Virus record (IMG/VR): IMGVR_UViG_3300043409_002307
Location: 1-40,338 of that record
DNA: 40,338 nucleotides
From: a virus
Reading direction: 5' to 3' (one strand)
The notes below the pieces were generated by a model. The model was given only the letters and a program-made list of their open reading frames with translations, was not told the DNA's origin and did not search any database. Positions 7,778 through 39,040 of this stretch are shown one piece after another. Position numbers and translations under genes: made by a program. Positions within the stretch are counted from its first letter, which is position 1. Every line of letters begins with the position of its first letter.

Positions 7778-7793
7778 TGTGATTTAAATCACC
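7778..7793 (+). promoter_or_regulatory. CRP-like operator TGTGA-N3-AAATCAC (site 1)
   Basis: TGTGATTTAAATCACC lies in the divergent gap between the minus-strand gene starting at 7723 and the plus-strand genes at 7850 and 7936. It fits the dyad TGTGA-N6-TCACA of CRP-family regulators, such as cyanobacterial SyCRP1, and the plus-strand consensus shared by five other intergenic sites in this window. A separate 12-bp palindrome CCAATTAATTGG (7765-7776) directly precedes it. Confidence 0.6.
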
Positions 7794-7849
7794 GCAATGA
7801 AGAATTATTCGGGATAAATTAAGAGAGTAGTTTGCACCGCAGTCCGCAG

Positions 7850-7936
7850 ATGTCTAGACGACGCGCCAATGGCGTACTATCCTCAATCTTTGTCTTGTTT
7901 GTGATCCTATTTCTATTCGCTAAGGCTTTTAAATAA
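7850..7936 (+). CDS. 28-aa single-pass membrane peptide
   Basis: The frame starts with a basic MSRRRANG, followed by one hydrophobic helix (VLSSIFVLFVILFLFA) and ends KAFK. Its TAA overlaps the ATG of the ERF gene in TAATG, so translation is probably coupled. The positive-inside N-terminus and a clean membrane helix in so short a frame, plus the coupled stop/start, make it likely to be real. Function is unknown; small phage membrane peptides can alter host membrane proteins or exclude other phages. A similar 28-aa membrane peptide lies at 33582. Confidence 0.6.
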   Translation: MSRRRANGVLSSIFVLFVILFLFAKAFK

Positions 7937-8565
7937 TGAAAGAATTGCTAACCGCGCTGGTTGCCGCAAAGGCAACGTTTAAGCCTATCCCTAAAGACAA
8001 GGTTAATCCATTTCATAAATCTCGATACGCCAGTCTAGACGCTGTTCTAGGGGCAGTAGAGCCGTCATTGCTAACTAACGGGTTAACGCTATCTCATACC
8101 GTGGATTCTGGCAGATTAATCACCAGGCTCTACCATACCAGTGGGGACTTCTTGGAAAGTAGTTTTAATCTCCCAGATCTATCAGATCCGCAAAAGTTAG
8201 GATCTGTCATCAGCTACTATCGCCGTTACGCTGTATGCGGATTGCTCTCGGTCACTGCCGATGAGGATGACGATGGCAACGCTGCCAAACCTAGTGATAA
8301 ACCTGCGGCAACTAAGCAAACTGCTTACACTCCACCCGCTAAACCTGCGGCGGTCAATCCCGACCTAAGAGATATCGAGACTCAACAGCAAGCACTTCGG
8401 GAATGTATGGAGATCCTCGAATACGACCAAAACCAAAAATCAGAATTTGCTAAAACCATCAATCCCAAGCCATTCCCAACTTGGAGCCTAGCAAATTGGG
8501 AGTTAGCAGTTGTTAAAGCACTTGCAGCAATCGACCAAATGAATGAATCCCCCATCCACTATTAA
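7936..8565 (+). CDS. erf: ERF-family single-strand annealing recombinase
   Basis: 209 aa. The N-terminal ~110 residues match the ERF superfamily: NPFHKSRYASLDAVLGAVEP, LTNGLTLSH, LITRLYHTSGDFLESSF, then QKLGSVISYYRRYAVCGLLSV followed by the acidic ADEDDDGNA. ERF proteins form rings on single-stranded DNA and anneal complementary strands, as in P22 genome circularisation. A Pro/Ala-rich linker (about 118-140) leads to a helical C-terminal domain (about 142-205), probably for partner binding. It is first of the plus-strand replication block and is coupled to the membrane peptide before it and the small gene after it (3-nt gap). Confidence 0.9.
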   Translation: MKELLTALVAAKATFKPIPKDKVNPFHKSRYASLDAVLGAVEPSLLTNGLTLSHTVDSGRLITRLYHTSGDFLESSFNLPDLSDPQKLGSVISYYRRYAVCGLLSVTADEDDDGNAAKPSDKPAATKQTAYTPPAKPAAVNPDLRDIETQQQALRECMEILEYDQNQKSEFAKTINPKPFPTWSLANWELAVVKALAAIDQMNESPIHY

Positions 8566-8568
8566 CTA

Positions 8569-8871
8569 ATGCAATATTATCAATCACCATCCGACCTCGG
8601 ACTTCCCATTATTAAGTTATTTATCACCAATCCCAGCGGGGAGTGTCGCCAAACTATCTACCTAATGGAGCGTCGATCGCCTCATTGGAGGTTTAACTTA
8701 TCAAGCGCACTTAAGTACCTTTGGAGGCTGGGAGTTAAAACTGAGAACACCGAATCAGACCTCCGTAAAGCCATTCAGTACCTGACATGGGAGCTGGAAT
8801 CATGCGCCGCTTTTGACACTCGCAACACTATTGAGACAGCCATTAAAATGTGCGAGGAGCTGCTAGAATAG
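8569..8871 (+). CDS. DUF3310-like small protein
   Basis: 100 aa. The middle block WRFNLSSALKYLWRLGVKTENTESDLRKAIQYLTWELE follows the DUF3310 pattern (F..GNA.KYLWR.G.K....DL.KA..YL), a small helical family frequent next to phage replication genes and sometimes annotated as nucleotide-kinase-like. Biochemical function is not established. It follows ERF by 3 nt, so is part of the same transcript, and ends before a strong hairpin at 8890. Confidence 0.65.
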   Translation: MQYYQSPSDLGLPIIKLFITNPSGECRQTIYLMERRSPHWRFNLSSALKYLWRLGVKTENTESDLRKAIQYLTWELESCAAFDTRNTIETAIKMCEELLE

Positions 8872-8889
8872 TACCAACTACGCCACAGT

Positions 8890-8931
8890 GACACGAAACC
8901 CGCCATCATCTCGATCGGCGGGTTTCGTGTC
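8890..8931. terminator. Strong hairpin after the ERF operon
   Basis: GACACGAAACCCGCC (8890-8904) pairs perfectly with GGCGGGTTTCGTGTC (8917-8931), a 15-bp stem with a 12-nt loop. No U-tract follows on either strand, so it may be a Rho-type, pausing or RNA-stabilising element rather than a canonical intrinsic terminator. A new promoter follows at 8945. Confidence 0.6.
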
Positions 8932-8944
8932 TTCAGAGTAAGTG

Positions 8945-8953
8945 TGATATAAT
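8945..8953 (+). promoter_or_regulatory. Extended -10 promoter for the primase operon
   Basis: TGATATAAT is an extended -10 element (TG-N-TATAAT), 27 nt upstream of the ATG at 8981 and after the hairpin at 8890-8931. The -35 region is poor, as is usual with an extended -10. The same TGATATAAT occurs before the Bro-N gene at 25074, and TGATACAAT before 26844. Confidence 0.65.
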
Positions 8954-8980
8954 AAAAACAGTTGAACTTATTTATGTGAT

Positions 8981-9361
8981 ATGGACAAAATCTATAGGTA
9001 CGCTATCAGCAATGCATCTGGCAAAATAGTTTTTGTGGATGAGCGGTTTTATGACTTGTGGCGAGAACGATGGGGGTATGTGCTATGTATGCCTGAATAT
9101 GAAGACGTGAATCGTGAAATAAACGAGGGTAGGCTAGATGAAATTCATTTTGGTGACTATCAAGTGCATCGATTTTTAGACACTCACAAAGATCCTCCCA
9201 ATCGTTGTGATGAATGCTTTTGCGAGTTAAGAGCTGGAAATAAAACAGGATTTTGCTCTAAACACCGATATCTAAACCCAACAGTTAAAATCCAAAGACG
9301 CGAGTACCAACGAGTTTATGTTGGTACTCGCAATTTCCGCAAAAAAGCCGAGGATGTGTAG
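8981..9361 (+). CDS. Hypothetical protein with a Cys/His zinc-binding site
   Basis: 126 aa. The N-terminal ~70 residues are mixed and aromatic (YDLWRERWGYVLCMPEYEDV). Residues about 75-95 read RCDECFCELRAGNKTGFCSKH, giving CxxC...CxxH, a likely zinc ribbon or finger. The C-terminus is basic (QRREYQRVYVGTRNFRKK). A zinc finger followed by a basic tail suggests nucleic-acid binding. Its TAG is followed at once by the ATG of the primase-helicase gene, so the two are coupled. Family not recognised. Confidence 0.65.
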   Translation: MDKIYRYAISNASGKIVFVDERFYDLWRERWGYVLCMPEYEDVNREINEGRLDEIHFGDYQVHRFLDTHKDPPNRCDECFCELRAGNKTGFCSKHRYLNPTVKIQRREYQRVYVGTRNFRKKAEDV

Positions 9362-11971
9362 ATGTCAAACTTAGACACAAATCATTTACAGCATTTAACC
9401 GAAAGTGCTATCTCGATTGACATTGCCGCTCTGAATTTTTACTCATGGGATGCCAACGACGAGAATGGCGGAGACAACGTATTCGATTTACTAGTCGATA
9501 ATCCCAAGTACCGTAATAATGGCACTCTATCAGGCGGATCTAACAATGCCCTAGCTAACGTCATTCGTGCGGGTGGGTGGGTGTTTGAAGGGCGTTTGGG
9601 CGTGAGTGTAAAGCCAGACTGCCCCCGCATAGTTGATGGTAAAATTATCAAGTATGAATCAGTCCGTGGGTGTCAGCAGTTGTTCGTCCCTCGTGTCTCG
9701 ATTCGGGCGGCGATGGCGATTGCTGCTAAGTTGGGTATTGATCGAGAGTTCGACATTACCACAAATACCAACTCCGAGGATCTGGGGTTTTGGGATTGGT
9801 TTCTATCTACTGGATTACCGCTAATCATCACTGAGGGATGTAAAAAAGCTTGTGCCGTGGTATCGGCTGGTTATCCGGCAATTGCCCTTAACGGGGTTTA
9901 TGGATGGGGTAGCAACGATCGGGATATGTTTGGGAATATCGAGGTTGATGACAGCGGCGATCGGATTAAAACGATCGTTCCCGAACTGATGCCATTTATT
10001 GTCGATCGCGAGATCGTGATGGCATTCGATCTCGATGATAAACCCAAAACTATCGCATACGTCCGTCGCGCTTTACATAGATTTGCGACTAGTATTGTTG
10101 ATATATCGAGTAGAGTGTCTCAATTGAAATGGGCTGGTAGCAAAGGGATTGACGATCTAATTGTTGTCAAGGGTGTTAAGAATTTAGATCGGATTTACAA
10201 CAAGAGAATGCCAGTTAAATCAGTTGAAGAGAAATCAGACAAGAAGCCTACAGCATGGCAACTATCGCCTAAAATCGCTCTTGATGTATTTGGCGGGACG
10301 ATGCGATATGATGTCGAGTTTAAGCAGTACTGGGAATATAAAGACGGTTTATGGAAGCAGTGCGCGGATGAATATATCTTTGCACTTGTTAAAACCTACT
10401 TAGATACCATAACCGAAGATTACCCGACTCGATTAGTTACCGAAACTATAACTTTCGCCAGAGGATCGATCCTAGTTCCCGAATGGATTGAGTCGGACAA
10501 TACTAGATTTATCCCATTTAAAAATGGAGTGCTGGAAGTTGAAACTATGCAACTGCTCCCACACTCCCCATCTTACGGATTTCGATGGCAGATGCCGCGC
10601 GATTATTCGATTGTCAGTACAGGATGGAATAGCATTGATAAGTTTTTGAAAGATTTTTCCAATCAAAATCATGAGCTTAAATGCGTGTTACTTGCCTTTT
10701 GCAATGCGGTTTTATTAGGTCGATCGGATCTTAATAAATTTCTTTACCTATCAGGGAGTGGCGGAAATGGTAAAGGGGTATTCATGAATCTAGTGAAGGC
10801 TTTAGTCGGATTTCAAAACACCCATACAACATCATTGGCTAGCTTGTGTGAAAATCGATTTGAACCTGCAAATATTAAAAATAAGCGGCTAGTCCTTTGT
10901 GATGATGAAGATAAAAAGCCTGACAGCCTAACAGTATTCAAGTCGGCAACTGGAAGCGGCGATATTACGTGCGAGTACAAAGGCAAGCAGTCAGCTAATT
11001 TTAAATTTGGCGGCATATTTATAGTAGCGGCGAATCAGCCGATATTCAGAGGGGAAAATCACGAAGCGATGAAACGACGTAAAGTTGATTTCCCATGCCG
11101 CCATCGCCCTTCCAAGGATGAAATACGCGATCTTATGCCCGAACTATTGCCCGAACTATCGGCATTTACTAGTTACATACTTGCATTAGATCCCGATTGG
11201 GTTGAGAAGACGATTAGATTTGCATCAGATGTCGAACCCATTGCAGAATTGGCGCGAGAGATGTCTATCAGGGAAGATTCGATCGCCGCATACTTTGACG
11301 ATCGACTAATAGCCGATCCGAAAGAATCGATCGGGTCTGAGCAGCTATATAAAGACTATCAAGCTTTTTGTGAGGCGAACGGACTCAAGCCTATGAGTTC
11401 AGTTCAATTTAGTCCTAAATTAGTTGAATTATGTCGAGATAGCATGGGTCTTGATGTAAGCAAGAAAAAGCGAAGCTCTGGTCAAAAAATACTAGGGCTT
11501 CGATTTCGTACCGTCATAGATGAATTTGAAGAAAAAAGTGCAGGGGTGCATAGTGAGTGCATGGACTATGCACCGATAGACCCGTTACTGCGTAAGGAGT
11601 GTGCAGGGGTGCATAGTAAAACCCCTTATTCTTATACAGGAGAAGAGAAAGAAATAAATAATAATATAGATCTAAATACAAAGGGTATGATAGGCGACTT
11701 ACCCGTCACCCATGCACTTTCTGACTTAAAACCCATACCATCAAACGATTCCAGTAGAGTGCAGGGTAATGACACCCATGCACTTTTGCACCCAGGCGAT
11801 CGAGTCTGGATTGCCAAGTACAACGAAAATGGCACCGTAGAGGCAATTTACCGCAATGACCCACCCATGCCACACGGGGCGCGAGTCGTCCGAGACAGTG
11901 GTAAACCATGCCTAGTAGACATATTGCCCGACCATTACAAACTAATCACGGAGCCGAACAATGACAAATAA
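9362..11971 (+). CDS. Primase-helicase (DUF3854 TOPRIM-like plus SF3/D5-type helicase)
   Basis: 869 aa. Residues about 140-240 are DUF3854/TOPRIM-like (LIITEGCKKACAVVSAGYPAIALNGVYGW, then IVMAFDLDDKPKT), the nucleotidyl-transfer core of plasmid and phage primases. Residues about 300-640 form a D5-type superfamily 3 helicase: Walker A SGSGGNGKGVF near 463-472, acidic motif LVLCDDED near 512-519, then IFIVAANQP with a sensor-like Asn. This is the main replication initiator and helicase candidate. The C-terminal ~170 residues are less conserved, with repeated peptides (AGVHS twice, THAL twice) coded by GTGCAT-rich DNA repeats, and end in an SH3/KOW-like segment (HPGDRVWIAKYNENGTVEAIY) that resembles the start of the next gene. 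It overlaps the next start by 11 nt. Confidence 0.85.
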   Translation: MSNLDTNHLQHLTESAISIDIAALNFYSWDANDENGGDNVFDLLVDNPKYRNNGTLSGGSNNALANVIRAGGWVFEGRLGVSVKPDCPRIVDGKIIKYESVRGCQQLFVPRVSIRAAMAIAAKLGIDREFDITTNTNSEDLGFWDWFLSTGLPLIITEGCKKACAVVSAGYPAIALNGVYGWGSNDRDMFGNIEVDDSGDRIKTIVPELMPFIVDREIVMAFDLDDKPKTIAYVRRALHRFATSIVDISSRVSQLKWAGSKGIDDLIVVKGVKNLDRIYNKRMPVKSVEEKSDKKPTAWQLSPKIALDVFGGTMRYDVEFKQYWEYKDGLWKQCADEYIFALVKTYLDTITEDYPTRLVTETITFARGSILVPEWIESDNTRFIPFKNGVLEVETMQLLPHSPSYGFRWQMPRDYSIVSTGWNSIDKFLKDFSNQNHELKCVLLAFCNAVLLGRSDLNKFLYLSGSGGNGKGVFMNLVKALVGFQNTHTTSLASLCENRFEPANIKNKRLVLCDDEDKKPDSLTVFKSATGSGDITCEYKGKQSANFKFGGIFIVAANQPIFRGENHEAMKRRKVDFPCRHRPSKDEIRDLMPELLPELSAFTSYILALDPDWVEKTIRFASDVEPIAELAREMSIREDSIAAYFDDRLIADPKESIGSEQLYKDYQAFCEANGLKPMSSVQFSPKLVELCRDSMGLDVSKKKRSSGQKILGLRFRTVIDEFEEKSAGVHSECMDYAPIDPLLRKECAGVHSKTPYSYTGEEKEINNNIDLNTKGMIGDLPVTHALSDLKPIPSNDSSRVQGNDTHALLHPGDRVWIAKYNENGTVEAIYRNDPPMPHGARVVRDSGKPCLVDILPDHYKLITEPNNDK
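11538..11786 (+). repeat. Iteron-like GTGCAT repeats inside the primase gene
   Basis: GTGCAGGGGTGCATAGT occurs at 11538-11554 and again, identical, at 11601-11617. CACCCATGCACTTT, which has the same GTGCATGG core in the other direction, occurs at 11707-11720 and 11773-11786. GTGCAGGG recurs at 11759. The first direct copy also forms an inverted repeat GGTGCATAGT/ACTATGCACC (11545-11554 with 11565-11574). Clusters of short direct and inverted repeats within or next to an initiator gene are typical of replication origins. Confidence 0.6.
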
Positions 11972-12296
11972 ACTCACCATCGGCGATCGCGTCATCACCA
12001 CTCGCTCGGACGGGGAAATCGGCACAGTGTGCGGCTTCAGGACTTGGCGCGGCATAGATCAAGCGAATATTGTATTTGAGATTGGCGATGAGAAGTGGAT
12101 CGGCGTGGATTATCTCATGCTGTGCCAATCCACAGAATTAGAAAACATCTTAGATGATGTGACTCAAGTCACATCATCTCTTGAAAACGACTGCCATACT
12201 GTAGAAACAGATGCGAAAACGAGAAACAAGAGGGCGGTCGAAGACTTAAACCCCGATACGGTATTTTTCAAAACTGAGGCATCGACTGAGCTATGA
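11961..12296 (+). CDS. Hypothetical protein with SH3/KOW-like N-terminus
   Basis: 111 aa. Residues 1-60 (TIGDRVITTRSDGEIGTVCGFRTWRG, then IVFEIGDEKWIGVDYLML) look like a small five-stranded barrel of the KOW/SH3 type and resemble the tail of the primase-helicase just before it. This suggests a duplicated domain that also exists as a free protein. The rest is acidic and probably disordered. It overlaps the primase gene by 11 nt and contains a perfect 11-bp-arm palindrome at 12153-12178. No function can be given. Confidence 0.6.
   Translation: MTNKLTIGDRVITTRSDGEIGTVCGFRTWRGIDQANIVFEIGDEKWIGVDYLMLCQSTELENILDDVTQVTSSLENDCHTVETDAKTRNKRAVEDLNPDTVFFKTEASTEL
12153..12178. promoter_or_regulatory. 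26-bp palindrome with a perfect TGTGA-N6-TCACA core
   Basis: GATGATGTGAC (12153-12163) is the exact mirror of GTCACATCATC (12168-12178) around TCAA. The core (12158-12173) is a perfect CRP-type dyad. Unlike the intergenic sites it lies inside a coding frame, about 175 nt before the SF2 helicase gene, and lacks the AAA half-spacer. Confidence 0.45.
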
Positions 12297-12348: not shown

Positions 12349-13758
12349 ATGACTTACCAACTCCGACATTACCAGACCGACCTCATCAGCCGCATCGCCC
12401 AATCCTGGTTTGAGCAGGGCAATCGCCGCGTCATGGCACAGCTCCCAACGGGCGGCGGTAAGACGATCGTCATATCCAGCATTGTCAAAGATTTCAGCAA
12501 TCGCGGATTGAAGGTCTTAGTACTAGCCCACCGTCAAGAGCTAGTTAATCAGTTAGTCGAAAAACTGGAATCTATCACCGATGAACCAGTAGGCGTAATC
12601 ATGGCAGGCGTTACTCCCAACTACGATCGCGACATCCAAGTCGGTAGCGTTCAAAGCATGGCGCGGCGGATGGAATCATGCCCCCATCTTGATTTGATAG
12701 TCATTGATGAATCGCATCATTCCAGTTCGGCATCCTATACCAAAATCACAGACAAGTACCCTACCGCAAAGGTTTTAGGTGTAACCGCCACTCCAGTCAG
12801 ACTAGATGGTAAGGGCTTCAACGGCGTGTTTGATGACCTGATTTGCGGCGTTAGCGTTGCCGACTTGATTGAGATGGGCAGTTTGTCCCAGTACACTTAC
12901 TACGGATGCGAAAAGCCGATGGATGTTTCAGGCTTGAGCAAGAGAGGCGGCGATTTCAAGGCTGAGGACATCGAAAGCCGCAACCCTGTTGAAGTAGTCG
13001 CAAATCAGGTTTATGAGTCTTACAGCCGCCATATTGGCGGCAAGCAGGCGGTAATATTTGCTACCACTGTCGCTCAATCTGTCGCCATTACCGAACATCT
13101 CCGCAACTCCGGCATCCGTGCCCATCACCTCGATGGACTGACCGCTAACGATGAGCGTAAATCGGTCATGGACTTATTCCGCAATCGGGAAATTCAAATC
13201 CTCAGTAATTGCGCCCTATTTGATGAGGGATTAGATATACCTTCAATTGACGCTGTAATCCTCGCCAGACCCACCGCAAGCCTTTCAAGGTACTTACAGA
13301 TGGTTGGACGATCTTTACGCCCTTGCGAGGGCAAAGAGCGGGCAGTAGTGATCGACCTAGCAGGCAACTACGAAAGACACGGGATGCCAGATGACGATCG
13401 GGAGTGGACACTCGACGGCATCCCTAAAAAACAAAAAGAGCGCAAAGCTACCAAATCCGTCCGCAATTCCATCACCAGCGAGATTGAGCAAGTGCCATTT
13501 TTCAATACTGGCACCGAGTATATCCAAATCATGGGCAAGACTGTGGTACTAACTCCAGAGTTGATAAAATGGCTGAGATTTGCGGATGAGATTATCGTCG
13601 ATGGTATTGATCGAGGGCATAGACCAGGAGCGGCGGCGTACAGATTGATGAGTAGCGATATTCAACCACCCCTCGAAGTTTGGAAGTACTTGGGTAAAAA
13701 GTTGGGTTATCATCACCAGTGGGCAAAATACAAGCATGAAGAATGGGCATCAAAATAA
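12349..13758 (+). CDS. SF2 DEAD/DEAH-type helicase (SSL2/RadD-like)
   Basis: 469 aa. Motif I PTGGGKT (33-39), motif Ia LAHRQEL (59-65), motif II DESH (120-123), motif III TATPVR (near 147), and in domain 2 the motif VI QMVGRSLRP (near 319-327) are all intact. The domain order matches RadD/SSL2-like superfamily 2 helicases, which remodel DNA branches or protein-DNA complexes. The C-terminal ~100 residues carry a Lys-rich stretch and a small basic domain. It probably helps phage replication or recombination. Preceded by 52 nt without a gene; followed by a 76-nt gap with an operator-like site. Confidence 0.9.
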   Translation: MTYQLRHYQTDLISRIAQSWFEQGNRRVMAQLPTGGGKTIVISSIVKDFSNRGLKVLVLAHRQELVNQLVEKLESITDEPVGVIMAGVTPNYDRDIQVGSVQSMARRMESCPHLDLIVIDESHHSSSASYTKITDKYPTAKVLGVTATPVRLDGKGFNGVFDDLICGVSVADLIEMGSLSQYTYYGCEKPMDVSGLSKRGGDFKAEDIESRNPVEVVANQVYESYSRHIGGKQAVIFATTVAQSVAITEHLRNSGIRAHHLDGLTANDERKSVMDLFRNREIQILSNCALFDEGLDIPSIDAVILARPTASLSRYLQMVGRSLRPCEGKERAVVIDLAGNYERHGMPDDDREWTLDGIPKKQKERKATKSVRNSITSEIEQVPFFNTGTEYIQIMGKTVVLTPELIKWLRFADEIIVDGIDRGHRPGAAAYRLMSSDIQPPLEVWKYLGKKLGYHHQWAKYKHEEWASK

Positions 13759-13767: not shown

Positions 13768-13783
13768 TGTGATTCAAATCACT
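13768..13783 (+). promoter_or_regulatory. CRP-like operator (site 2)
   Basis: TGTGATTCAAATCACT lies 52 nt before the ATG at 13835 and matches TGTGA-N3-AAATCAC. TGATAAAGTAA follows at 13802; the same string occurs before the HU gene at 18458 and may be a -10 region. Confidence 0.55.
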
Positions 13784-13834
13784 GATATTGTGACCAGAGG
13801 CTGATAAAGTAAATTAACTGAATCAATCACAGCC

Positions 13835-20224: not shown

Positions 20225-23200
20225 ATGAAACACTTTAAATCAACTCCCACAGCCGCATTTATTTTCTATCGCAGCTACTCCAGATTTATCGACGGGGTGC
20301 GTGAGACATGGCAATCGATGGCTCTCCGATGCGTCCTAGGACTAGCGAATCTCGGTAAATTTACTGAGGATGAAGTTAAGCTAATCTATTCCCAAATCGA
20401 CAATTGCACAGCACTCCCATCAGGGCGGTATATGTGGTGTGGTGGTACTGAGTGGAGCGACAAGCAAGCCAACTATCCAGGGATGTACAATTGCAGTTCA
20501 ACAGTGGTAGACAACATTGAGACATTTGGCTATCTGATGGATTTAGCAATGACAGGATGTGGGACTGGCGCGGTGTTGGAATTGGACGCGATCGCTAAGT
20601 TACCGTCAATTAAAACTAAACTCAATATCGAGATTGTGGGGGATATTGGCACAAAATTAAAATCAGATCGTCAGGTAGAAACTTTAGCACAAGAGGTTTT
20701 GGGCGAAGTTTGGATCGAAGTTGGTGATTCTCGTCGTGGATGGGTAGACAGCTACATGGAATTGATTCGACGCGCTACATGCGATGGATTGGGAGAGTCA
20801 ATCGATATCAAGGTCGATTTGTCTAGCGTCAGATCTGCAGGGGAGCGTTTACAAGGCTTTGGCGGCAGTGCTAATCCATTTAAATTGCCCGAACTCTATA
20901 GCAAGGTATCGGCGATTCTCAATGGCGCGATCAATCGTCAACTCAACTCGATCGAATGTTGCAAGCTAATCGATGAGGCGGCTTGCGTAGTTGTGGCGGG
21001 GAATATTCGGAGGTGCATCGCTTACGGGGAGCGGGTTTCAGCCTTCGGAGGTATGAAGCCTATACAGAATATCTTGGTTGGCGATAGAGTATTGGCATCT
21101 GATGGTGAGTACCACTCAGTGACAAATACCTTCGATCAAGGCATTCAGAAGACTATCAAGATTCAGACACAACTATCAAGTCTGTCAGTGACCGCAAATC
21201 ACCGTCTAGCCGTGATGGATAAATTTAATGAATACAAGTGGGTTGAAGCTAAGTATCTATCTGTTGGGGACATCCTAGTATCAACTCCGCACACCAAAGG
21301 AATCGATATCATAACAACTGATGAAGCATGGTTAATTGGCACTTATATCGCTGATGGGCATACCGACATTGAAAACAAGGCAAAACGAAGTGGCGGCGGC
21401 GGAGAGACTATCTTTGCAATGTCTACCACAAGTCTAGATACAGTTGGAGCCAAAATAGCCAAATGTTTGTTCGATAAAGGCTATACACCAACTATCCGAT
21501 CGAAAGGCAACTCTTCTAGCCTCTCTGTCTACCGCAAAGATCTAGCTGAATACTTCCGGCAATTTAAAGCCCCGTGGGGTACCCCGACTATTCCTGATGT
21601 TGTCTGGCATGGATCGCCGCAAGTTCGAGGCGCATTCTTAGCTGGATTGTGGGATGGAGACGGAGACGATCGCGCTGTACTTAATAGCACGAAGCCTGAT
21701 TTCCTGGCAGAAGTTCAAAAACTTTACCTGTCTTTAGGAATCGCAGTTAACCTCAATATCCGCAAAGATAAAGTAGTCAAAGGCAATACATACGAAGGCT
21801 GTCATAACCTCACAGTAGTAGGTCAGCAGTCAAAGTTAGCACTAAAAGCTTTAGTAGCTCCATTCCTAGTGCGAATTGATTACGTTCCATCAGCTATGAA
21901 CCGATCAAACTTACGACTACCTAAATTCTTCTCTACCAAACACATGCACGGGAAAGCTGGGCACAATTGGGATGGATTTGTGGCTGATGGAATAGCGGAC
22001 GCTAGTTTGATTCCGTGCCCGATCGTCTCAATATCCGAAGGTGAGGCGGTACATACTTACGACATTGAAGTTGCAGACGTGCATGAGTTTATCGTGAATG
22101 GTTTGCTTTCCCATAACAGTGCGGGCATCAGACAATTCTCAGCTAATGATACATTTGCACTCACCGCCAAGGATAATCTATGGCAACAGCGCGATGACGG
22201 CAAATGGGGGATCGATCCCGATCGCGATGCTTTGCGGATGGCTAACCACACTCGCGTATTCCACACTAAGCCTACGTTAACCGAGTGCATTGATTCAGTA
22301 CGCAAACAGTACTATTCAGGGGAGGGTGCGATTCAGTGGGCTGGTGAGGCTGTGGCACGGGCTAATGCCGATTTATTGGATACTCCAGAGAAAAAGCATA
22401 ACTTTCTGCATTTATACAATCTTGATAAATTGAACGCAAAAGTTTACCTGTCGAATATGATGGGACTCTGTGAAGATATCGAAAATATCGGCAGTAGTTC
22501 AAACTTTGAACTCAATCACCGGATGGCTCGCTACGGGCTGAATCCATGCGGGGAGATCCAAATGACAGACAATTTTTGTAACCTTGCAGAGGTTCATCTC
22601 AACACGATCGACCCATTCGATTTCGATGCTCAAGTATCCGCTTTCAAAGCCGCATCTCTCAATGTGGTGGCATTGCTCCATCATCAATTTGAAGTGCCAC
22701 GATACCAAAAATCGCGGGAACTCGATCCGATTGTCGGCGTGTCATTCACGGGGTTGTTCGACTTTTTCGTACAGTTGTTTGGTGTAGAGTGGTTGCATTG
22801 GTGGCAAGCTGGCAGACCTGCCAATTGGGGTCATCCGGTGGACATTGACGATAATTGTCGGATGCTACCACTATTAGAGTGTGATTTTATTCGTGTCCAC
22901 CACTTTGATAGTACGTCCGATCTATTTCTCGCGATCGAGGAAGAGTACCTCTGTAGTTGGAAAACAATCGTATTCGACACCGTAACCGAATATTGCGAAC
23001 GTCACGGATTGAAGGTTCCGAATCGTGCGACAACTTGTCAGCCAGCAGGATCGAAGTCTCTACTCACGGGCGCGTCCCCAGGTTGGCATCCACCAAAAGC
23101 TAGTCGCTACATCCGCCGCATGACGTTTGGTAAAGATGAACCGATTGCCCTCGCTGCGATCGATATGGGTTACAACGTCATCCCGTCACAATCCGACAAG

Positions 23201-23701
23201 GATGAGAACGGGAATCTACTCGATGATATCCACGATCCGCGCGTCACCGAGTGGCTGGTAGAGATACCATGTGCCACCAGTTGGGCAGATCTGCCAGGTG
23301 CGGATGAGATTGAGATTGGCAAGTTCTCAGCTTTGGCACAATTCAACTTTTACATGCAGGTACAACGGTACTATTCGACTCACACAACATCGGCAACGAT
23401 CGAGATGAGAGAGGATGAGATTACCGAGCTAGCCACTGCCATCTATGAGGATATCCAAGCGGATGGTGGTTATATGAGCGCGGCTCTATTAGCAAGGTTT
23501 GACAGCCTAGAGACGTTCCCACGGATGCCATTTGAGCCGATCAGCAAGGATGGGTATAACGATGCTATGGTAGCTATTCGGATGCGGCGGACTATTGACA
23601 ACTTCGATGAAGCACTGGCACTGTACGATCAGGGTCAAACTAATGAGAGCGGTCCTAGTGGTTGCGATAGCGATAAGTGTTTGATACCAGAACCGAAGTA
23701 G
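20225..23701 (+). CDS. nrdJ: Adenosylcobalamin-dependent (class II) ribonucleotide reductase with intein
   Basis: 1158-aa precursor; after removal of a 368-aa intein (residues 264-631) about 790 aa remain, near the size of the Lactobacillus leichmannii RTPR. Active-site parts are intact: YNCSS with Cys90, NPCGEI with Cys775 and Glu777, NFCNL with Cys785, and the C-terminal redox pair Cys1147-x4-Cys1152 (CDSDKC). QPAGSKSLLTG is the conserved substrate loop. The enzyme makes deoxynucleotides from ribonucleotides with vitamin B12, which cyanobacteria make as pseudocobalamin. It starts 20 nt after the previous gene and probably acts with dcd and ThyX. In the same frame the sequence stays open for 55 codons after its TAG (see findings). 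Confidence 0.95.
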   Translation: MKHFKSTPTAAFIFYRSYSRFIDGVRETWQSMALRCVLGLANLGKFTEDEVKLIYSQIDNCTALPSGRYMWCGGTEWSDKQANYPGMYNCSSTVVDNIETFGYLMDLAMTGCGTGAVLELDAIAKLPSIKTKLNIEIVGDIGTKLKSDRQVETLAQEVLGEVWIEVGDSRRGWVDSYMELIRRATCDGLGESIDIKVDLSSVRSAGERLQGFGGSANPFKLPELYSKVSAILNGAINRQLNSIECCKLIDEAACVVVAGNIRRCIAYGERVSAFGGMKPIQNILVGDRVLASDGEYHSVTNTFDQGIQKTIKIQTQLSSLSVTANHRLAVMDKFNEYKWVEAKYLSVGDILVSTPHTKGIDIITTDEAWLIGTYIADGHTDIENKAKRSGGGGETIFAMSTTSLDTVGAKIAKCLFDKGYTPTIRSKGNSSSLSVYRKDLAEYFRQFKAPWGTPTIPDVVWHGSPQVRGAFLAGLWDGDGDDRAVLNSTKPDFLAEVQKLYLSLGIAVNLNIRKDKVVKGNTYEGCHNLTVVGQQSKLALKALVAPFLVRIDYVPSAMNRSNLRLPKFFSTKHMHGKAGHNWDGFVADGIADASLIPCPIVSISEGEAVHTYDIEVADVHEFIVNGLLSHNSAGIRQFSANDTFALTAKDNLWQQRDDGKWGIDPDRDALRMANHTRVFHTKPTLTECIDSVRKQYYSGEGAIQWAGEAVARANADLLDTPEKKHNFLHLYNLDKLNAKVYLSNMMGLCEDIENIGSSSNFELNHRMARYGLNPCGEIQMTDNFCNLAEVHLNTIDPFDFDAQVSAFKAASLNVVALLHHQFEVPRYQKSRELDPIVGVSFTGLFDFFVQLFGVEWLHWWQAGRPANWGHPVDIDDNCRMLPLLECDFIRVHHFDSTSDLFLAIEEEYLCSWKTIVFDTVTEYCERHGLKVPNRATTCQPAGSKSLLTGASPGWHPPKASRYIRRMTFGKDEPIALAAIDMGYNVIPSQSDKDENGNLLDDIHDPRVTEWLVEIPCATSWADLPGADEIEIGKFSALAQFNFYMQVQRYYSTHTTSATIEMREDEITELATAIYEDIQADGGYMSAALLARFDSLETFPRMPFEPISKDGYNDAMVAIRMRRTIDNFDEALALYDQGQTNESGPSGCDSDKCLIPEPK
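21014..22117 (+). mobile_element. Intein with LAGLIDADG homing endonuclease in nrdJ
   Basis: The intein starts at Cys264 (CIAYGERVSAFGG), right after AGNIRR of the host protein, and ends VNGLLSHN, followed by Ser632 (SAGIRQFSAND). Splicing would restore GNIRRSAGI, the RNR reading expected. Block B has TANH; the endonuclease core has two LAGLIDADG motifs, LIGTYIADGH and FLAGLWDGDGD; blocks F and G are VHTYDIEVADVHEFIVNGLLSHN. All splicing residues (Cys1, TxxH, His-Asn, Ser+1) are present, so it is probably active. It targets the conserved active-site stretch of RNR, a common site for inteins. Confidence 0.95.
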
Positions 23702-24920: not shown

Positions 24921-24968
24921 AGGGTATCGACTGTGACTTAAATCACTAGGTGAAAAGAATATTTTAGG
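24921..24968 (+). repeat. 48-bp direct repeat, copy 1 (with CRP-like operator site 3)
   Basis: 45 of 48 bases match the copy at 25875-25922. It includes AGGGTATCGAC, TGTGACTTAAATCACT (24932-24947) and AAAGAATATTTTAGG. It lies upstream of the Bro-N gene at 25074, and the second copy lies upstream of the gene at 26001, so both genes are probably under the same control. The AATATTTT stretch ~20 nt from the dyad centre could be a -10 region. Confidence 0.75.
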
Positions 24969-24995
24969 GACGATATAGACGATATAGACGATCTA
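24969..24995 (+). repeat. Three 9-bp tandem repeats at a promoter
   Basis: GACGATATA occurs twice, followed by GACGATCTA. The last unit overlaps ATAGACGATCTAT, itself a small inverted repeat, and covers the -35 position of the promoter with -10 at 25007. The same ATAGACGATCTAT lies at the same distance from the -10 box before the gene at 39869, so it may be an operator. Confidence 0.6.
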
Positions 24996-25003: not shown

Positions 25004-25073
25004 TGATATAATAGAAAGAGCGGGAATCTAAAACATTCCCGCTCTTTCAACATTCACTAGTATAAGTAGCAAG
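25004..25073 (+). promoter_or_regulatory. Promoter and hairpin leader, type B (copy 1)
   Basis: An extended -10 TGATATAAT (25004-25012) is followed by AGAAAG, a 14-bp stem GAAAGAGCGGGAAT/ATTCCCGCTCTTTC (25014-25027 with 25035-25048), then TCAACATTCACTAGT and AAGTAGCAAGATG, up to the start codon. The leader of the gene at 39869 has the same order of parts and nearly identical last 30 nt, but a different stem sequence. The kept pairing with changed bases points to selection on an RNA hairpin. Confidence 0.75.
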
Positions 25074-25814
25074 ATGTCTAATATCATTCTATTTCAATTT
25101 GAATCCAATGAGATCCGATTTGTGGGCACTGCCGAAAATCCTGAGTGGATTGCGGCTGATATCTGCAAAGTATTGGGAATTGCGAATGTGTCGGACGCAC
25201 TAGAGTCCCTAGATTCGGATGAAAAGGGTATCGCTAATACCGATGATGGCTCCCTGACTGGATCTCGGATGCTCACTGTAACCGAATCAGGACTTTATCG
25301 ACTCATATTTAAGTCTCGCAAACCCGCAGCCAAACGGATGAAGAAATGGGTGTTTTCCGTGGTACTACCTAGCATCCGCAAAACTGGTAGTTATTCGATC
25401 ACGCCTGAACCTATCCCACAATTACCATCTCGCGAATTAGCGCTAGAGACTGCTGTAGCGATTGATCGCATTCAAGATATACTGAGCAAGTCCAACCCTC
25501 GACTCGCTCAGATTCTAATTGATTGTGCGATGAATGACATTGTTGATTTTAATCGATCGCTACTATCATCCAATGAATTCCCAGAAGACAAGTGGTATGG
25601 ATTAGTTCAGATCGCGTCAAAGATGGGCATCAAAACTAATCTATCTACTCGCGTTAAGCTAGGGCAATCGATCGGCAAGCGCGTTAAAGAGCTGAACCTA
25701 GAGCGAGTACGTGAAGAGCGGCTGTGTAATAATCAGTATGAAGAAATCTGGTGCTATCGAGATAACGATGTAGTTCGGAATGCTATTCAAGAATGGGCTG
25801 ATTCCCAAAGTTAA
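25074..25814 (+). CDS. Bro-N phage antirepressor-like regulator (copy 1)
   Basis: 246 aa. The N-terminal ~105 residues are a Bro-N domain: RFVGTAENPEWIAADICKVLGI, then TESGLYRLIFKSRKPAAKRMKKWVFSVVLPSIRKTG, a fold used by phage and baculovirus regulators to bind DNA. The C-terminal ~130 residues contain NPRLAQILIDCAMND and KWYGLVQIASKMGIKTNLSTR and end in a Trp/Tyr-rich part (EIWCYRDNDVVRNAIQEW). The gene at 31054-31794 codes for a paralog of the same length. It is headed by the 48-bp repeat, tandem repeats and a type B leader, so it is heavily regulated. Confidence 0.85.
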   Translation: MSNIILFQFESNEIRFVGTAENPEWIAADICKVLGIANVSDALESLDSDEKGIANTDDGSLTGSRMLTVTESGLYRLIFKSRKPAAKRMKKWVFSVVLPSIRKTGSYSITPEPIPQLPSRELALETAVAIDRIQDILSKSNPRLAQILIDCAMNDIVDFNRSLLSSNEFPEDKWYGLVQIASKMGIKTNLSTRVKLGQSIGKRVKELNLERVREERLCNNQYEEIWCYRDNDVVRNAIQEWADSQS

Positions 25815-25874: not shown

Positions 25875-25922
25875 AGGGTATCGACTGTGAGCTAAATCAC
25901 TAGGTGGAAAGAATATTTTAGG
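25875..25922 (+). repeat. 48-bp direct repeat, copy 2 (with CRP-like operator site 4)
   Basis: It matches the copy at 24921-24968 in 45 of 48 bases. The operator-like core is TGTGAGCTAAATCACT (25886-25901). It lies about 80 nt before the gene at 26001. Confidence 0.75.
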
Positions 25923-25924
25923 CA

Positions 25925-25997
25925 CACAAAAGCCGCTCGCGATCGATAAGACCAGAGCGGCTTTGTGCTATTGTAGGGATACCAACCAACACAATAG
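25925..25997 (+). promoter_or_regulatory. Two-hairpin 5' leader before the 26001 gene
   Basis: Hairpin 1 pairs AAAGCCGCTC with GAGCGGCTTT (about 25929-25938 with 25955-25964), extended by CACA/TGTG with one bulge. Hairpin 2 pairs CTATTGT (25968-25974) with ACAATAG (25991-25997) and ends 3 nt before the ATG at 26001, so it would cover the ribosome-binding area. No Shine-Dalgarno sequence is seen. Hairpin leaders also head the four DinD/Bro-N genes. Confidence 0.55.
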
Positions 25998-26000: not shown

Positions 26001-26636
26001 ATGAGCTTAACACCAAAAGCAGTAATCGCGCAAGTATTTATCGGTAACTTGAGTATCGAAGGGTTGATGAGAGAGGATGACGGTACGTTTGGTATCGCAA
26101 TACCTCAGTTAGTGTCACACAATCTAGTCGGTCAAAATAACTCTAATCGTGATGTCAAAACATACATGGGAGAGGGTTCTAAGTTAGTCAAATGGCGTAC
26201 TACATTAAACCCCAGGGCTGTTAACGTAATACTACTTTCTGACTTTGAGCGTCTGCTATTTGAACTTGCATTGAACGGAAATAAACCAGCCCAGACAATG
26301 GCGCGGGATCTAGCTGGTTTGGCACTCACCCAACTATTCTCGGATGCGTTCGGGATCGAGTTTGAGAAAAAAGAGCGACAAGCGTGGTTAATTGACCGCC
26401 AATCACATCGCGAGGACTTTCACCCTAAGTTCACTGCATGGCTGAAACAGGATGGTTGTGAGGGCAAGTATTACGCGATCGAGGTGAATAACTTTAAGCG
26501 GGCATTGGGACTACCGATCGCACCAGTCGATAAATATGATTCCAAGCAATTGAGAATATTGGATGTTGCTTTCATTAAGTATGACGTGTTGAGAACTACG
26601 GGAATGAAACACAGTGAGGTGATGTCATTGGTCTAA
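26001..26636 (+). CDS. Cyanobacterial-type regulator-like hypothetical protein
   Basis: 211 aa. LSIEGLMREDDGTFGIAIPQL at the N-terminus and ILLSDFERLLFELALNGNKPAQTMARDLAGLALTQLFSDAFGIEF resemble a group of cyanobacterial hypothetical proteins related to KilA/Bro-like regulators; I recall the pattern but cannot name a family. The C-terminal half is charged. Its control region copies that of the Bro-N gene before it (48-bp repeat and hairpin leader), which supports a regulatory role in the same circuit. A 207-nt gap with an operator-like site and a promoter follows. Confidence 0.6.
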   Translation: MSLTPKAVIAQVFIGNLSIEGLMREDDGTFGIAIPQLVSHNLVGQNNSNRDVKTYMGEGSKLVKWRTTLNPRAVNVILLSDFERLLFELALNGNKPAQTMARDLAGLALTQLFSDAFGIEFEKKERQAWLIDRQSHREDFHPKFTAWLKQDGCEGKYYAIEVNNFKRALGLPIAPVDKYDSKQLRILDVAFIKYDVLRTTGMKHSEVMSLV

Positions 26637-26727
26637 GTGTTGATGCTGTCAGTGCGATCGCGTAAGTAATTGCACCGACAGTGGATGTACGTAGGTGGAT
26701 GTACGGATAAGGTTTTTTTGTTCTGGG

Positions 26728-26743
26728 TGTGACGGAAATCACA
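26728..26743 (+). promoter_or_regulatory. CRP-like operator (site 5), perfect dyad
   Basis: TGTGACGGAAATCACA is a perfect TGTGA-N6-TCACA dyad, about 50 nt upstream of the -10 at 26795. The same gap (26637-26843) also holds an inverted repeat CTGTCaGTGC/GCACcGACAG near 26648-26682 and two direct copies of GTGGATGTACG near 26681-26705. Confidence 0.6.
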
Positions 26744-26791
26744 GACACGTTCAGCCTCAAAAATGCCTAGACTTTTTTTACCTTCAAAATC

Positions 26792-26800
26792 TGATACAAT
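26792..26800 (+). promoter_or_regulatory. Extended -10 promoter of the morphogenesis genes
   Basis: TGATACAAT (TG-N-TACAAT), 43 nt before the ATG at 26844. It resembles the TGATATAAT promoters at 8945 and 25004. A T-run fills the -35 area. It probably drives 26844-28696. Confidence 0.55.
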
Positions 26801-26843: not shown

Positions 26844-27509
26844 ATGAGTAGCTATACAGACAAAAATTACGGGGGGCAAACTCAGTGGACTACTCCCACT
26901 TATGCAAATAGTCAAACATTTGGCTCGAATTATGATCACGATCGCCTTAATAAAAGAGCGTCTGATAGTCAAGCTAGGGCGGCGGCATCGGCAGAAGAAT
27001 CGAGAAATGCACAAGTAGTAAGAGATTATAAATCAGGCGAAAACTCGCTAAGTTTGGCAGGGAGAAGAGATGATCAAAATGCCAAGTCAGAAGAGAGATC
27101 CCGCAGACTAATCGAAAGCATTGATCGCAGTAAAGTAGATGTTGATAATAAATTTAGATCGAGAGAATCAGCACTCGATCGCAATAAGTCATCCGATGAA
27201 TTTAGCCAATCTCGATATCAATTAAAGCACAATCAAGCCCAGGATCGGGCTAATTTAGAGTACAGCACCGCCCAAGGACTAGCTAAGGATAAACAGAGCC
27301 AAGATGCTGAATTAGCGCGTTTAAGAGCGTCTGGGGGTATTGCTAGCGCATTAGCTGACAAAACCAACGCGGCAAATACAATGCTAGCCAATATATCGCA
27401 AGCGACTGAACTAGCGGGGCAATCGAGCGCAATTGAACGCGCTCGATTAGCAGCTAATGCGCAAGTTAAAGCCGCTTTATTCACGCCTAGACAATATTCG
27501 GGGTATTAA
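26844..27509 (+). CDS. Coiled-coil protein, candidate internal virion or ejection protein
   Basis: 221 aa, rich in Ser, Ala, Arg, Asp and Gln, with long helical stretches (QARAAASAEESRNAQVV, SEERSRRLIESIDRSKVD) and few hydrophobics. No enzyme motif. It resembles the next gene and the C-terminal half of the 36274 gene in composition, such as repeated QA/NQ/DNQ-type segments. Such helical, polar, low-complexity proteins in head regions are often core or DNA-ejection proteins, or scaffolds. The role is inferred only. First gene after the promoter at 26792. Confidence 0.6.
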   Translation: MSSYTDKNYGGQTQWTTPTYANSQTFGSNYDHDRLNKRASDSQARAAASAEESRNAQVVRDYKSGENSLSLAGRRDDQNAKSEERSRRLIESIDRSKVDVDNKFRSRESALDRNKSSDEFSQSRYQLKHNQAQDRANLEYSTAQGLAKDKQSQDAELARLRASGGIASALADKTNAANTMLANISQATELAGQSSAIERARLAANAQVKAALFTPRQYSGY

Positions 27510-27512
27510 AAC

Positions 27513-28121
27513 ATGAGTTTTAGCTGGGGACGCAGTGCTGGTGAGTCTGATAATGACTACAATACTCGATATCAAAACCAAAGATCTAAGGTTCAGCAAG
27601 ATGAATCAAATCAGCAATCCGAAATAGATAGACAACAAAGAGATATTGCTAATATTAACAATGAAACTATTAGTTTGGCAAATCAGAAAGCGTTGGATGC
27701 TCTCAATAAGCAAAAAGCAGATCGAGCGGCTGGCATTACATCTGTCGCCGACAAAACTAGAGAATTAAATGATCTCACTGCACAATATAACGCGCAAAAA
27801 TCATTAGATAGAGTCAACAGGGATATCGCAAATCAAAAAAATGGGATTGTTTCGGCTAAAGACGCTGAGTCTGAGATGTCTGATTATCAACAATATGAGC
27901 AAAAACAAGCCCTAGATATTGCCAATCAAGACAAAGCATGGGCAAATGCAAGTAGATATAGACAGTCAGATGCTGAACAGTCAAACATTGCCCAAAAGGA
28001 TCGATTAGTTGCTGGATTAGATAATCAAAAAGTATTGCAACAAAATACGATCAATCAAGCAAATAAACTCCGTCGCGATGACAATCAAAGGGCGATTGAT
28101 GGATTTAAAATGAAGTTTTAG
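27513..28121 (+). CDS. Gln/Asn-rich coiled-coil protein, candidate internal virion protein
   Basis: 202 aa, highly Gln-, Asn-, Asp- and Lys-rich throughout, with a strong heptad pattern (KVQQDESNQQSEIDRQQRDI, LNDLTAQYNAQKSLDRVNRDI). Probably one long helical rod. It starts 3 nt after the previous stop and shares its composition, so they may be a diverged pair or partners. No catalytic motif. It precedes the small terminase gene by 11 nt, so is part of a head/packaging operon. Confidence 0.6.
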   Translation: MSFSWGRSAGESDNDYNTRYQNQRSKVQQDESNQQSEIDRQQRDIANINNETISLANQKALDALNKQKADRAAGITSVADKTRELNDLTAQYNAQKSLDRVNRDIANQKNGIVSAKDAESEMSDYQQYEQKQALDIANQDKAWANASRYRQSDAEQSNIAQKDRLVAGLDNQKVLQQNTINQANKLRRDDNQRAIDGFKMKF

Positions 28122-28132
28122 TAATAGTTAAT

Positions 28133-28696
28133 ATGTCAAGAATTGCCAAAGGAACTACTTTAGTTGGGACTCAATTACATGACTGGAGTGAAGACGATCG
28201 CAACGATGCGATTGAGTTCGCTCTGCATCCAGCCAATGGTGTGACAGCCGTCACACTTTACCTTAATAGCAAAGGCGTAAAAGCATCGATAACGGCTGTA
28301 CATAAGTGGCTCAATAGTATTAGAGAGGAGTCTAGAAAAGTTGCCGCCATTAGAAAAGTATTTGATGATTATAAAGGTGTAACGCCAAATGAAATTAATG
28401 CTTATGTTGCGGCTTTAATGGTGGAAACAATTGTAAAACTTAACGAAAAGATCGAGCAAGACGGCTTAGATTCAAGGATAATTCAATCACTTACATCTCT
28501 TGCTAAAGAAGCTAGATCGTCAGCCGTTGCCATGAATACGCCCCAATCTACCGCATCCATGAAAGAATTAGAGTTAGGACATGCACTAAGTTTTACCCAA
28601 CGGTTAGAGGGCGTTTTCGATGGGGACGATGTGATTCTAGAACGGGTGCGATCGGCTTGCAAGGGAATTATGATTGAGATCGAAGGACAGTATTAA
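28133..28696 (+). CDS. Terminase small subunit (DUF3486-like)
   Basis: 187 aa. Residues about 15-65 hold a helix-turn-helix-like region (AIEFALHPANGVTAVTLYLNSKGVKASITAVHKWL), as in Mu gp27-like small terminases (DUF3486), followed by helices for oligomer formation (VAALMVETIVKLNEKIEQDGLD, SLTSLAKEARSSAVAM). It should recognise phage DNA and start packaging with the large subunit at 32050. Unusually, two minus-strand genes lie between the two subunits. Its stop overlaps the stop of the minus-strand gene at 28693 by 4 nt. A perfect TGTGA-N6-TCACA dyad sits inside the frame at 28240. Confidence 0.65.
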   Translation: MSRIAKGTTLVGTQLHDWSEDDRNDAIEFALHPANGVTAVTLYLNSKGVKASITAVHKWLNSIREESRKVAAIRKVFDDYKGVTPNEINAYVAALMVETIVKLNEKIEQDGLDSRIIQSLTSLAKEARSSAVAMNTPQSTASMKELELGHALSFTQRLEGVFDGDDVILERVRSACKGIMIEIEGQY

Positions 28697-31053: not shown

Positions 31054-31794
31054 TTAAACTTCAGCTAACGAATCAACCCATTCGTTGATCGCTTGACGAG
31101 TTTGGGGATTATCGCGATAGCACCAAATCGGACGCATTTCACCATTACATAGACGATCTTCTCGCACTCGTTCTAAACCCTTCTTTCCAACTGACAGACC
31201 CATAGATGTTCGCGTCGATGAGTTGGTCTTGATGCCCATTTTCTCGGCAATTGAGACTAGACTATACCAACGATCTTCGGGGAATTCGACAGCGGAAGCA
31301 GCCAACTTTGGTTGATTTGACTCAACAAAATCGTTAACGCCGATGTCGATAAGTAGTTGAGCGAGTCGAGGATTGGATTGTGATAGCAATCCTTGAATAT
31401 TACAAATAGATTGGGCAACTTTCTCAGACTGCTCAATAAGCAATTGCTTCGGTACTGGGACTTCAGGTACAACCGAGTATTTTCCAGTTTTGCGGATAGA
31501 TGGCAGAACTTCAGAGAATACCCATTTCTTCATCCGTTTAGCTGCAGGTTTGCGAGACTTGAAAATGAGCCGATACAGTCCAGGTTCATTAACGGTAAGC
31601 ATTTCTTGATCTCCACCAAGGGTATAACCTTTAGTAATACCCTTTTCTTCCGGTTCCAGTGTTTCTAAAGATTTCGATGTATTTTCTAATCCTAATGCTT
31701 TGCAAATATCGTCAGCAACCCACTCAGGATTCTCAGCAGTCCCCACGAATCGAATGTTATGGTTCTCGAAATCGAATAGAATAGTGTTAGTCAT
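31054..31794 (-). CDS. Bro-N phage antirepressor-like regulator (copy 2)
   Basis: 246 aa, a paralog of the 25074-25814 product with the same length and order. The Bro-N domain (FVGTAENPEWVADDICKALGL, then LYRLIFKSRKPAAKRMKKWVFSEVLPSIRKTG) is almost unchanged; the middle has diverged more; the C-terminus keeps GIKTNSSTRTSMG and IWCYRDNPQTRQAINEW. The very similar N-terminal half suggests binding to related DNA targets, with the C-terminal half setting partners. It has a type A leader, unlike copy 1. It lies inside the head-gene region between the small and large terminase genes. Confidence 0.85.
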   Translation of the reverse strand: MTNTILFDFENHNIRFVGTAENPEWVADDICKALGLENTSKSLETLEPEEKGITKGYTLGGDQEMLTVNEPGLYRLIFKSRKPAAKRMKKWVFSEVLPSIRKTGKYSVVPEVPVPKQLLIEQSEKVAQSICNIQGLLSQSNPRLAQLLIDIGVNDFVESNQPKLAASAVEFPEDRWYSLVSIAEKMGIKTNSSTRTSMGLSVGKKGLERVREDRLCNGEMRPIWCYRDNPQTRQAINEWVDSLAEV

Positions 31795-36771: not shown

Positions 36772-36819
36772 TTGTCATCCTGATAGATCGATTATAACCT
36801 AATCACTATCAGATAGATC
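36772..36819 (+). promoter_or_regulatory. Capsid gene promoter region
   Basis: A weak TTGTCA (36772-36777) and TATAAC (36793-36798) with 15-bp spacing lie between two direct copies of GATAGATCG (36782-36790 and 36812-36820), the second touching the ATG at 36822. GATAGA also occurs at the -35 position before the DinD genes at 5710 and 39869. Confidence 0.4.
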
Positions 36820-36821
36820 GT

Positions 36822-38024: not shown

Positions 38025-38039
38025 TCGATCAATAATTCT

Positions 38040-38061
38040 GGCTAGGTAAAATTAACTAGCC
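38040..38061. other. Small inverted repeat after the capsid gene
   Basis: GGCTAG (38040-38045) pairs with CTAGCC (38056-38061) around a 10-nt A/T loop. It is too short for a strong terminator and may allow readthrough into the next gene. Confidence 0.3.
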
Positions 38062-38084
38062 TAAACCACCCACTATTTAAACTC

Positions 38085-38798
38085 ATGAGTCTAATTAATT
38101 ACAGCGATGTCACAGGGCAGATTCTTGACGGCAAGGACAAAGATACTATCAACTTGCATAATGGTTACTACCTCAGGGAGGCTGTAGGCTATGCCAAAAT
38201 TACCAGCACCCCACAGAACAACATCCCAATCTATTTACCCTCACAAGCGCAAGCAGGTGGGGAATTGGTAACTAATCCCGATCAATTGCTAGTCCTACCA
38301 GCAGGGGCAATTATCAACCGCATTGCTCTCAGATTGCCAAAACTTGAGAATAACAAAACCGCTCAGTATGGCAACCTACCAGATAAGTCCACTCTGATTG
38401 GCACCACTGGCGAACTAGTCAAGGTTGGCGCGGCGGGAGTATTCACCACTACCGAACCAGCAATTGCGGCGGTATCTGGTGCATACGTCCCCAACGCTAG
38501 CAAAGCTGTTAACCGTGGCATTGCGAGCAGTGCTGACGTTGCGGCTAGTGGGTTGGTAACTCTTGGAGCGGCTACCCAATACAACTTGCTGGTATCAAAC
38601 GCTGGTAGCACGGCTGCGGGTACTGGTATTTCGACTAGTGCGGGTGATGCTTTCGCGATCGTGCAGATTTGTTGGTACGAAGTTCAGCCAGCCCCAACTT
38701 ATGAAATGATGGGATATCAGTCTAAGCTAAAAGGTATCTATGCATCATCAAATGGTGGTATAGCTTTTGTTGCTCCAGTGTCCTTACCGGGCAATTAG
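38085..38798 (+). CDS. Second head protein (decoration or minor capsid)
   Basis: 237 aa, 60 nt after the capsid gene. Composition is Ala-, Gly-, Ser-, Thr- and Asn-rich with beta-type alternation (IPIYLPSQAQAGGELV, TQYNLLVSNAGST), typical of head decoration or tail proteins. It starts MSLINYSDVTGQILDG and ends AFVAPVSLPGN, with no catalytic motif. Its place right after the capsid gene makes a decoration protein the best guess. Confidence 0.65.
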   Translation: MSLINYSDVTGQILDGKDKDTINLHNGYYLREAVGYAKITSTPQNNIPIYLPSQAQAGGELVTNPDQLLVLPAGAIINRIALRLPKLENNKTAQYGNLPDKSTLIGTTGELVKVGAAGVFTTTEPAIAAVSGAYVPNASKAVNRGIASSADVAASGLVTLGAATQYNLLVSNAGSTAAGTGISTSAGDAFAIVQICWYEVQPAPTYEMMGYQSKLKGIYASSNGGIAFVAPVSLPGN

Positions 38799-39002
38799 AG
38801 CGGGCAGGATTTAAGAATCGGATTGTTTTTTTGATGTGTCATAGAATTATCAGGGTTGCAGTCGTTTGCTCATCATCGGCGGTAGCTGTCCGAACGGACT
38901 AGACTGATGCCTCAAGATTGAATAATACTGTCTCTGGATGGTGGTCTTTGACCGTCGCCGTTTCCCGTATTCGCCCTTGTTCTTTAATTATGCCTGAATA
39001 AA
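38799..39002. other. Non-coding gap between head genes and the DinD-like gene
   Basis: Only short frames are seen, the longest about 22 codons (near 38836), and none looks coding. No tRNA shape is recognised. The gap ends at the palindrome at 39003. It contains GTTTTTTTGATGTGTC near 38824-38840. Confidence 0.5.
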
Positions 39003-39040
39003 ACTATCCCCACTGTGACCGAAATCACAGTGGGGATAGT
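39003..39040. terminator. Terminator containing CRP-like operator (site 6)
   Basis: ACTATCCCCACTGTGA and TCACAGTGGGGATAGT pair perfectly (16-bp arms) around CCGAAA. The core 39014-39029 is a perfect TGTGA-N6-TCACA dyad. On the minus strand the stem is followed by TTTTATT, so it can end the transcript of the gene at 39057. It may have both roles or derive from one another. Confidence 0.7.

Follow-up and report, generated by a model that had tools for sequence, protein, structure and literature searches.

Cyanophages exploit the host regulators NtcA and PhoB, or have been proposed to do so, and viruses of Synechococcus use the host PhoBR system through Pho-box sites. In marine cyanomyoviruses, NtcA sites predicted by motif number 8.9 per genome on average and lie upstream of diverse genes, and cyanophages have also been scanned for Pho-box promoters (PMC3037559). 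Cyanobacterial promoters that are activated by CRP carry the consensus TGTGAN6TCACA with a -10 box about 22 bp downstream, and cAMP signalling in cyanobacteria has been linked to motility and to nitrogen-related genes (PMC2633013). Our searches of open-access papers, which reach part of the literature, yielded no earlier description of CRP sites on a cyanophage genome. Palindromes that fit the CRP consensus recur in the viral genome described here.

The virus and its relatives

The window, meaning the whole stretch of DNA that was analysed, is the complete IMG/VR record IMGVR_UViG_3300043409_002307 (40,338 bp). It encodes an ERF recombinase, primase, helicases, a methyltransferase, a clamp, HU, a ribonucleotide reductase, terminase, portal, and capsid. 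S-EIV1 was the only named phage to match the capsid protein (37%) and was also the best match for TerL, while the ribonucleotide reductase region shared 66-76% nucleotide identity with many cyanobacterial genomes. Because of these matches and the abundance of CGATCG (104 copies), we classify the window, from its sequence, as a cyanophage. Among 386 cyanobacterial genomes, no convincing CRISPR spacer or prophage linked it to a host; the matches were either weak or derived from the ribonucleotide reductase, and host assignment by DNA match or CRISPR spacer was rejected. A TerL-based search of genome contigs for prophages returned none. The relative IMGVR_UViG_3300043447_000532 (G001) encodes TerL and capsid proteins that are 76% and 70% identical to those of the window, and its genome holds 86 copies of CGATCG. 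Scans with TerL, primase, capsid, and the site pattern yielded no other close relative.

Several features of these genomes were recorded alongside the main analysis. An intein, covering roughly residues 264-631, apparently interrupts the ribonucleotide reductase gene (20225-23701); the corresponding flanking parts are contiguous in G001, so that position has no intein there. The full GCGATCGC is rare in both genomes despite abundant CGATCG, and other 6-bp palindromes are missing, e.g., CCATGG, CAGCTG, and CTCGAG in the window. The absence of several 6-bp palindromes in the window and G001 suggests strong restriction avoidance. A perfect 46-bp palindrome (6704-6749) between the convergent genes 6207-6680 (plus) and 6756-7121 (minus) is probably a bidirectional terminator. 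The window also carries four BRO-N genes (4919-5710 minus, 25074-25814 plus, 31054-31794 minus, and 39057-39869 minus), and several BRO genes have related leaders. A fifth, BRO/antirepressor-like gene (26001-26636 plus) was identified by a weak fold match; the structure of its protein was predicted at low confidence (pLDDT 64), with weak BRO/antirepressor matches. Inverted repeats at 25007-25083 and 39860-39936 each place a hairpin just upstream of a start codon, and their stem sequences differ.

A palindrome with a fixed spacer

An earlier note on this DNA had described six copies of TGTGA-N3-AAATCAC, all intergenic and on one strand. We confirmed all six to the nucleotide, each intergenic and on the plus strand (7778, 13768, 24932, 25886, 26728, and 39014), and the shuffling control that the note had proposed reproduced them in none of 100 dinucleotide shuffles. 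However, the AAA is dispensable and the motif is almost palindromic, which makes strand nearly meaningless, and an additional site, at 7180, is oriented towards a gene on the minus strand. What the sites share is better captured by the CRP palindrome TGTGA-N6-TCAC(A). A scan for GTGA-N6-TCAC recovered nine sites, all beginning TGTGA, with 7180, 12158, and 28240 added to the original six. The sites and associated features are as follows.

7180..7195, minus: candidate CRP site GGTGATCTAGCTCACA; the ATG of gene 6756-7121 (minus) follows 58 nt later
7778..7793, plus: candidate CRP site TGTGATTTAAATCACC, located between divergent genes and preceding the ERF/replication genes
7815..7820, plus: -10-like TAAATT hexamer whose class II spacing gives site 7778 an inferred centre of -41.5
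7850..7936, plus: 28-codon ORF for a small hydrophobic peptide, its stop codon overlapping the ERF start codon (ATG 7936)
12158..12173, plus: candidate CRP site TGTGACTCAAGTCACA, part of a 26-bp palindrome close to where ORF 11961-12296 ends
13768..13783, plus: candidate CRP site TGTGATTCAAATCACT, followed by gene 13835 and by helicase and methyltransferase genes
13802..13810, plus: extended -10-like TGATAAAGT, which puts the inferred centre of 13768 at -41.5
24932..24947, plus: candidate CRP site in the first repeat copy (24921-24971), ahead of the BRO-N gene at 25074
25886..25901, plus: candidate CRP site in the second repeat copy (25875-25925), ahead of the antirepressor-like gene at 26001
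26728..26743, plus: perfect CRP palindrome TGTGACGGAAATCACA that precedes genes 26844-28696
28240..28255, plus: perfect palindrome TGTGACAGCCGTCACA inside gene 28133-28696, with no -10 nearby
39014..39029, plus: TGTGACCGAAATCACA, part of a 38-nt hairpin (39003-39040) that lies between two convergent genes

The enrichment was specific to one spacer. Across the other spacers from 0 to 20, GTGA and TCAC were paired zero to two times each in the window (mean, 0.35), compared with nine times at N6. G001 had five GTGA-N6-TCAC sites, four of them in the TGTGA form, versus about 0.2 at other spacers, and spacer 6 was the sole enriched one. All nine window sites fit TGTGA-N6-TCACA at 9 or 10 of 10 positions. 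Matches of at least 9/10 numbered 10 where about 1.4 were expected, and degenerate 8/10 matches were fewer than expected (7 observed, 18.6 expected). Seven of the nine sites fell in intergenic DNA, which makes up 8% of the window (P ~8e-7); this is the upstream location of CRP operators, apart from 39014 between its convergent genes. In a control set of 36 unrelated viral loci (556 kb) we counted five copies at N6, and in 337 kb of other cyanophages there were also five, none with TGTGA. The TGTGA form was likewise not enriched in S-EIV1 and the other cyanophages sampled. Shuffles, spacer controls, unrelated viral loci, and other cyanophages together rule out chance or base composition as the source of the sites.

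Promoter geometry and conservation

We scored TATAAT-like hexamers by offset from those sites whose gene-facing strand was clear (11 strand-assigned sites, window plus G001). The mean score was highest 21-24 nt past the 16-bp site (local-null P ~2e-4); gene-facing strands were picked after the sites had been viewed, and the tested offset was preset from the literature (~22 bp). As read from the sequence, this peak matches class II CRP geometry. Beyond the two sites centred at -41.5 (7778 and 13768), the inferred centres of 12158 and 7180 lie at or near -43.5: the 7180 site is followed 21-23 nt downstream by the -10-like CATAAT/TAATGT, and the 12158 site by TACTGT at 12197, upstream of the helicase gene at 12349. 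The first ORF after the predicted promoter start of 7778 is the 28-codon ORF. For 26728, an extended -10-like TGATACAAT (hexamer 26795-26800) gives a centre of -71.5, with -44.5 as the alternative. Four of the 11 strand-assigned sites have no class II -10 (24932, 25886, and G001 28221 and 28258). With the nearest good -10, TGATATAAT (25004-25012), the centre of 24932 would be at -79.5, and with the -10-like TGCTATTGT that of 25886 would be at -87.5; the two sites belong to a single duplicated 51-nt direct repeat with 92% identity between copies.

Comparison with relatives, which the earlier note had suggested as a check, supported the sites in G001 but showed no enrichment in distant relatives or other cyanophages. 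Three window sites have kept counterparts in G001: 26728, 7180, and 12158. The core of 26728 is identical at G001 28258, inside 80 bp of mostly noncoding DNA with 85% identity (window 26713-26792, G001 28243-28322). The counterpart of 7180 (G001 8259-8274) matches at 8/10 positions, lies 58-59 nt upstream of the orthologous gene, and is followed by TATAAC at 22 nt. The 12158 site and its counterpart at G001 5225 are each about 40 nt from a shared 69-bp block (window 12213-12281, G001 5116-5184; 78% identity), which sits elsewhere in the G001 genome and in a differing context, as if the CRP-like site and the block moved together. The more distant relatives had no sites except for one copy on a single contig (G314; CGTGACTTAAATCACC), which lies beside a terminator-like repeat and was judged probably due to chance.

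A tandem arrangement was also seen in G001, where two perfect CRP palindromes stand 37 bp apart upstream of late genes (28221-28273; L039 8221-8273). Of this pair, the window retains the second only, at 26728.

Candidate readers of the sites

The earlier note had recognized the shape of CRP-family sites and had left the choice between host cAMP and a regulator of the phage's own. For these predicted sites, the CRP-family reading draws support from a spacer of exactly N6, their position in intergenic DNA, several -10-like boxes at class II distance, and conservation in the relative. As to the reader, neither the window nor G001 has a recognizable cNMP-binding domain (PF00027) or Crp-type HTH domain (PF13545), which speaks against a phage-encoded CRP and favours a host CRP. 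Each of the two cyanobacterial genomes in which distant phage relatives were found has a SyCRP1 orthologue (60-65% identical) with the recognition helix ARETVTR.

We assign a probability of roughly 60% to the reading that these are host cyanobacterial cAMP-CRP (SyCRP1-type) sites that activate phage promoters. The virus probably times its genes by host cAMP, because near-perfect CRP sites lie mostly upstream of genes at activating spacing. Host cAMP-CRP would bind at about -41.5 at 7180 (minus), 7778 (plus), 13768 (plus), and probably 12158 (plus), and the bound protein would activate transcription from the -10 box 21-24 nt downstream in class II fashion. The 26728 site (plus) may act as a class I site (-71.5). 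The replication genes and the late/structural gene block would thereby respond to host cAMP. From these features we infer CRP binding, activation instead of repression, and cAMP dependence. Counting against a host CRP are the four sites that lack a class II -10 and the capacity of 39014 and 12158 to form hairpins, along with two observations that bear on the first alternative.

That alternative, which we consider unlikely, is that a phage regulator outside the CRP family binds the palindromes as its operators, with the BRO-N/antirepressor proteins or a small protein as candidates. A look-alike operator is conceivable because the sites are unusually near perfect; a set rich in near-perfect and poor in degenerate sites resembles a dedicated phage operator more than it does the usual host regulon. 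Furthermore, the distant relatives we examined, in CRP-bearing hosts, have no or almost no sites, and two copies lie in a duplicated element ahead of two BRO/antirepressor-like genes. However, motif and spacing are those of the cyanobacterial CRP consensus, the -10 boxes stand at the class II offset, no HTH repressor was detected among the ORFs scanned, and phages without the sites also carry distant BRO relatives.

It is quite improbable that host CRP mainly represses or blocks transcription at these sites, or that the sites are decoys titrating CRP off its own targets, such as pilus genes. The sites without a class II -10 would suit such a role, as would the intragenic positions of 12158 and 28240, but several sites have activator geometry, positions upstream of orthologous genes are kept, and nine sites per genome are few for titration.

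The palindromes could instead have been RNA hairpins. The half-sites of 39014 form opposite arms of a perfect 16-bp hairpin that is followed by TTTTATT on the minus strand, and both 39014 and 12158 fold strongly as RNA (39014 z about -8 / -7). In contrast, the predicted folds of 7778, 13768, 24932, and 26728 were no stronger than those of shuffled sequences, and an RNA stem followed by a U-run was found at 39014 only. We therefore rejected hairpins or terminators as an account of the array; it fits 39014, which is probably a terminator stem and not an operator, and possibly 12158. With chance excluded by shuffles and the spacer control, a reading as hairpins, terminators, or coincidence is largely refuted apart from 39014 and is very improbable for the array. 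The claim that all six original copies are CRP-type sites must accordingly be narrowed, since a terminator stem accounts better for 39014, and since 24932/25886, as copies of a single duplicated element, have no good class II -10. Because of this repeat pair, the terminator, the palindrome at 12158, and the intragenic site at 28240 (possibly a chance occurrence), independent candidate operators number about five to seven.

The sequence feature is thus well supported, and the mechanism of host cAMP-CRP activation is a prediction. Tentatively, replication and late genes in a small cyanophage lineage may be under host cAMP-CRP, with infection gated by cAMP and hence by light, energy, or nitrogen state. 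If so, a phage so rich in cAMP-CRP sites would extend the list of exploited host sensors to a third member and tie infection to cAMP signalling. The window sites share with the SyCRP1 and AnCRPA sites of cyanobacteria (PMC2633013) the TGTGAN6TCACA motif, an intergenic position, and, at several of the sites, a -10-like box about 22 bp downstream. They differ in that a phage genome carries them, about nine in 40 kb, and in that one half-site usually reads TGTGAC/G and the final A is frequently absent. The likeness to Pho-box promoters is that phage genes are placed under a host environmental regulator, while the regulator family and motif are different. With the NtcA sites of cyanomyoviruses, the array has in common multiple predicted sites for a host CRP-family regulator upstream of phage genes. 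However, NtcA, the second major CRP-family regulator of cyanobacteria, reads 2-oxoglutarate/nitrogen and binds GTA-N8-TAC, a motif that we rejected for the window because it is not enriched there (11 copies versus about 9 at other spacers), and the window phage is smaller than the marine cyanomyoviruses and unrelated to them. The array would resemble the NtcA sites proposed for cyanomyoviruses, but with a cAMP-CRP motif and in a small phage related to S-EIV1.
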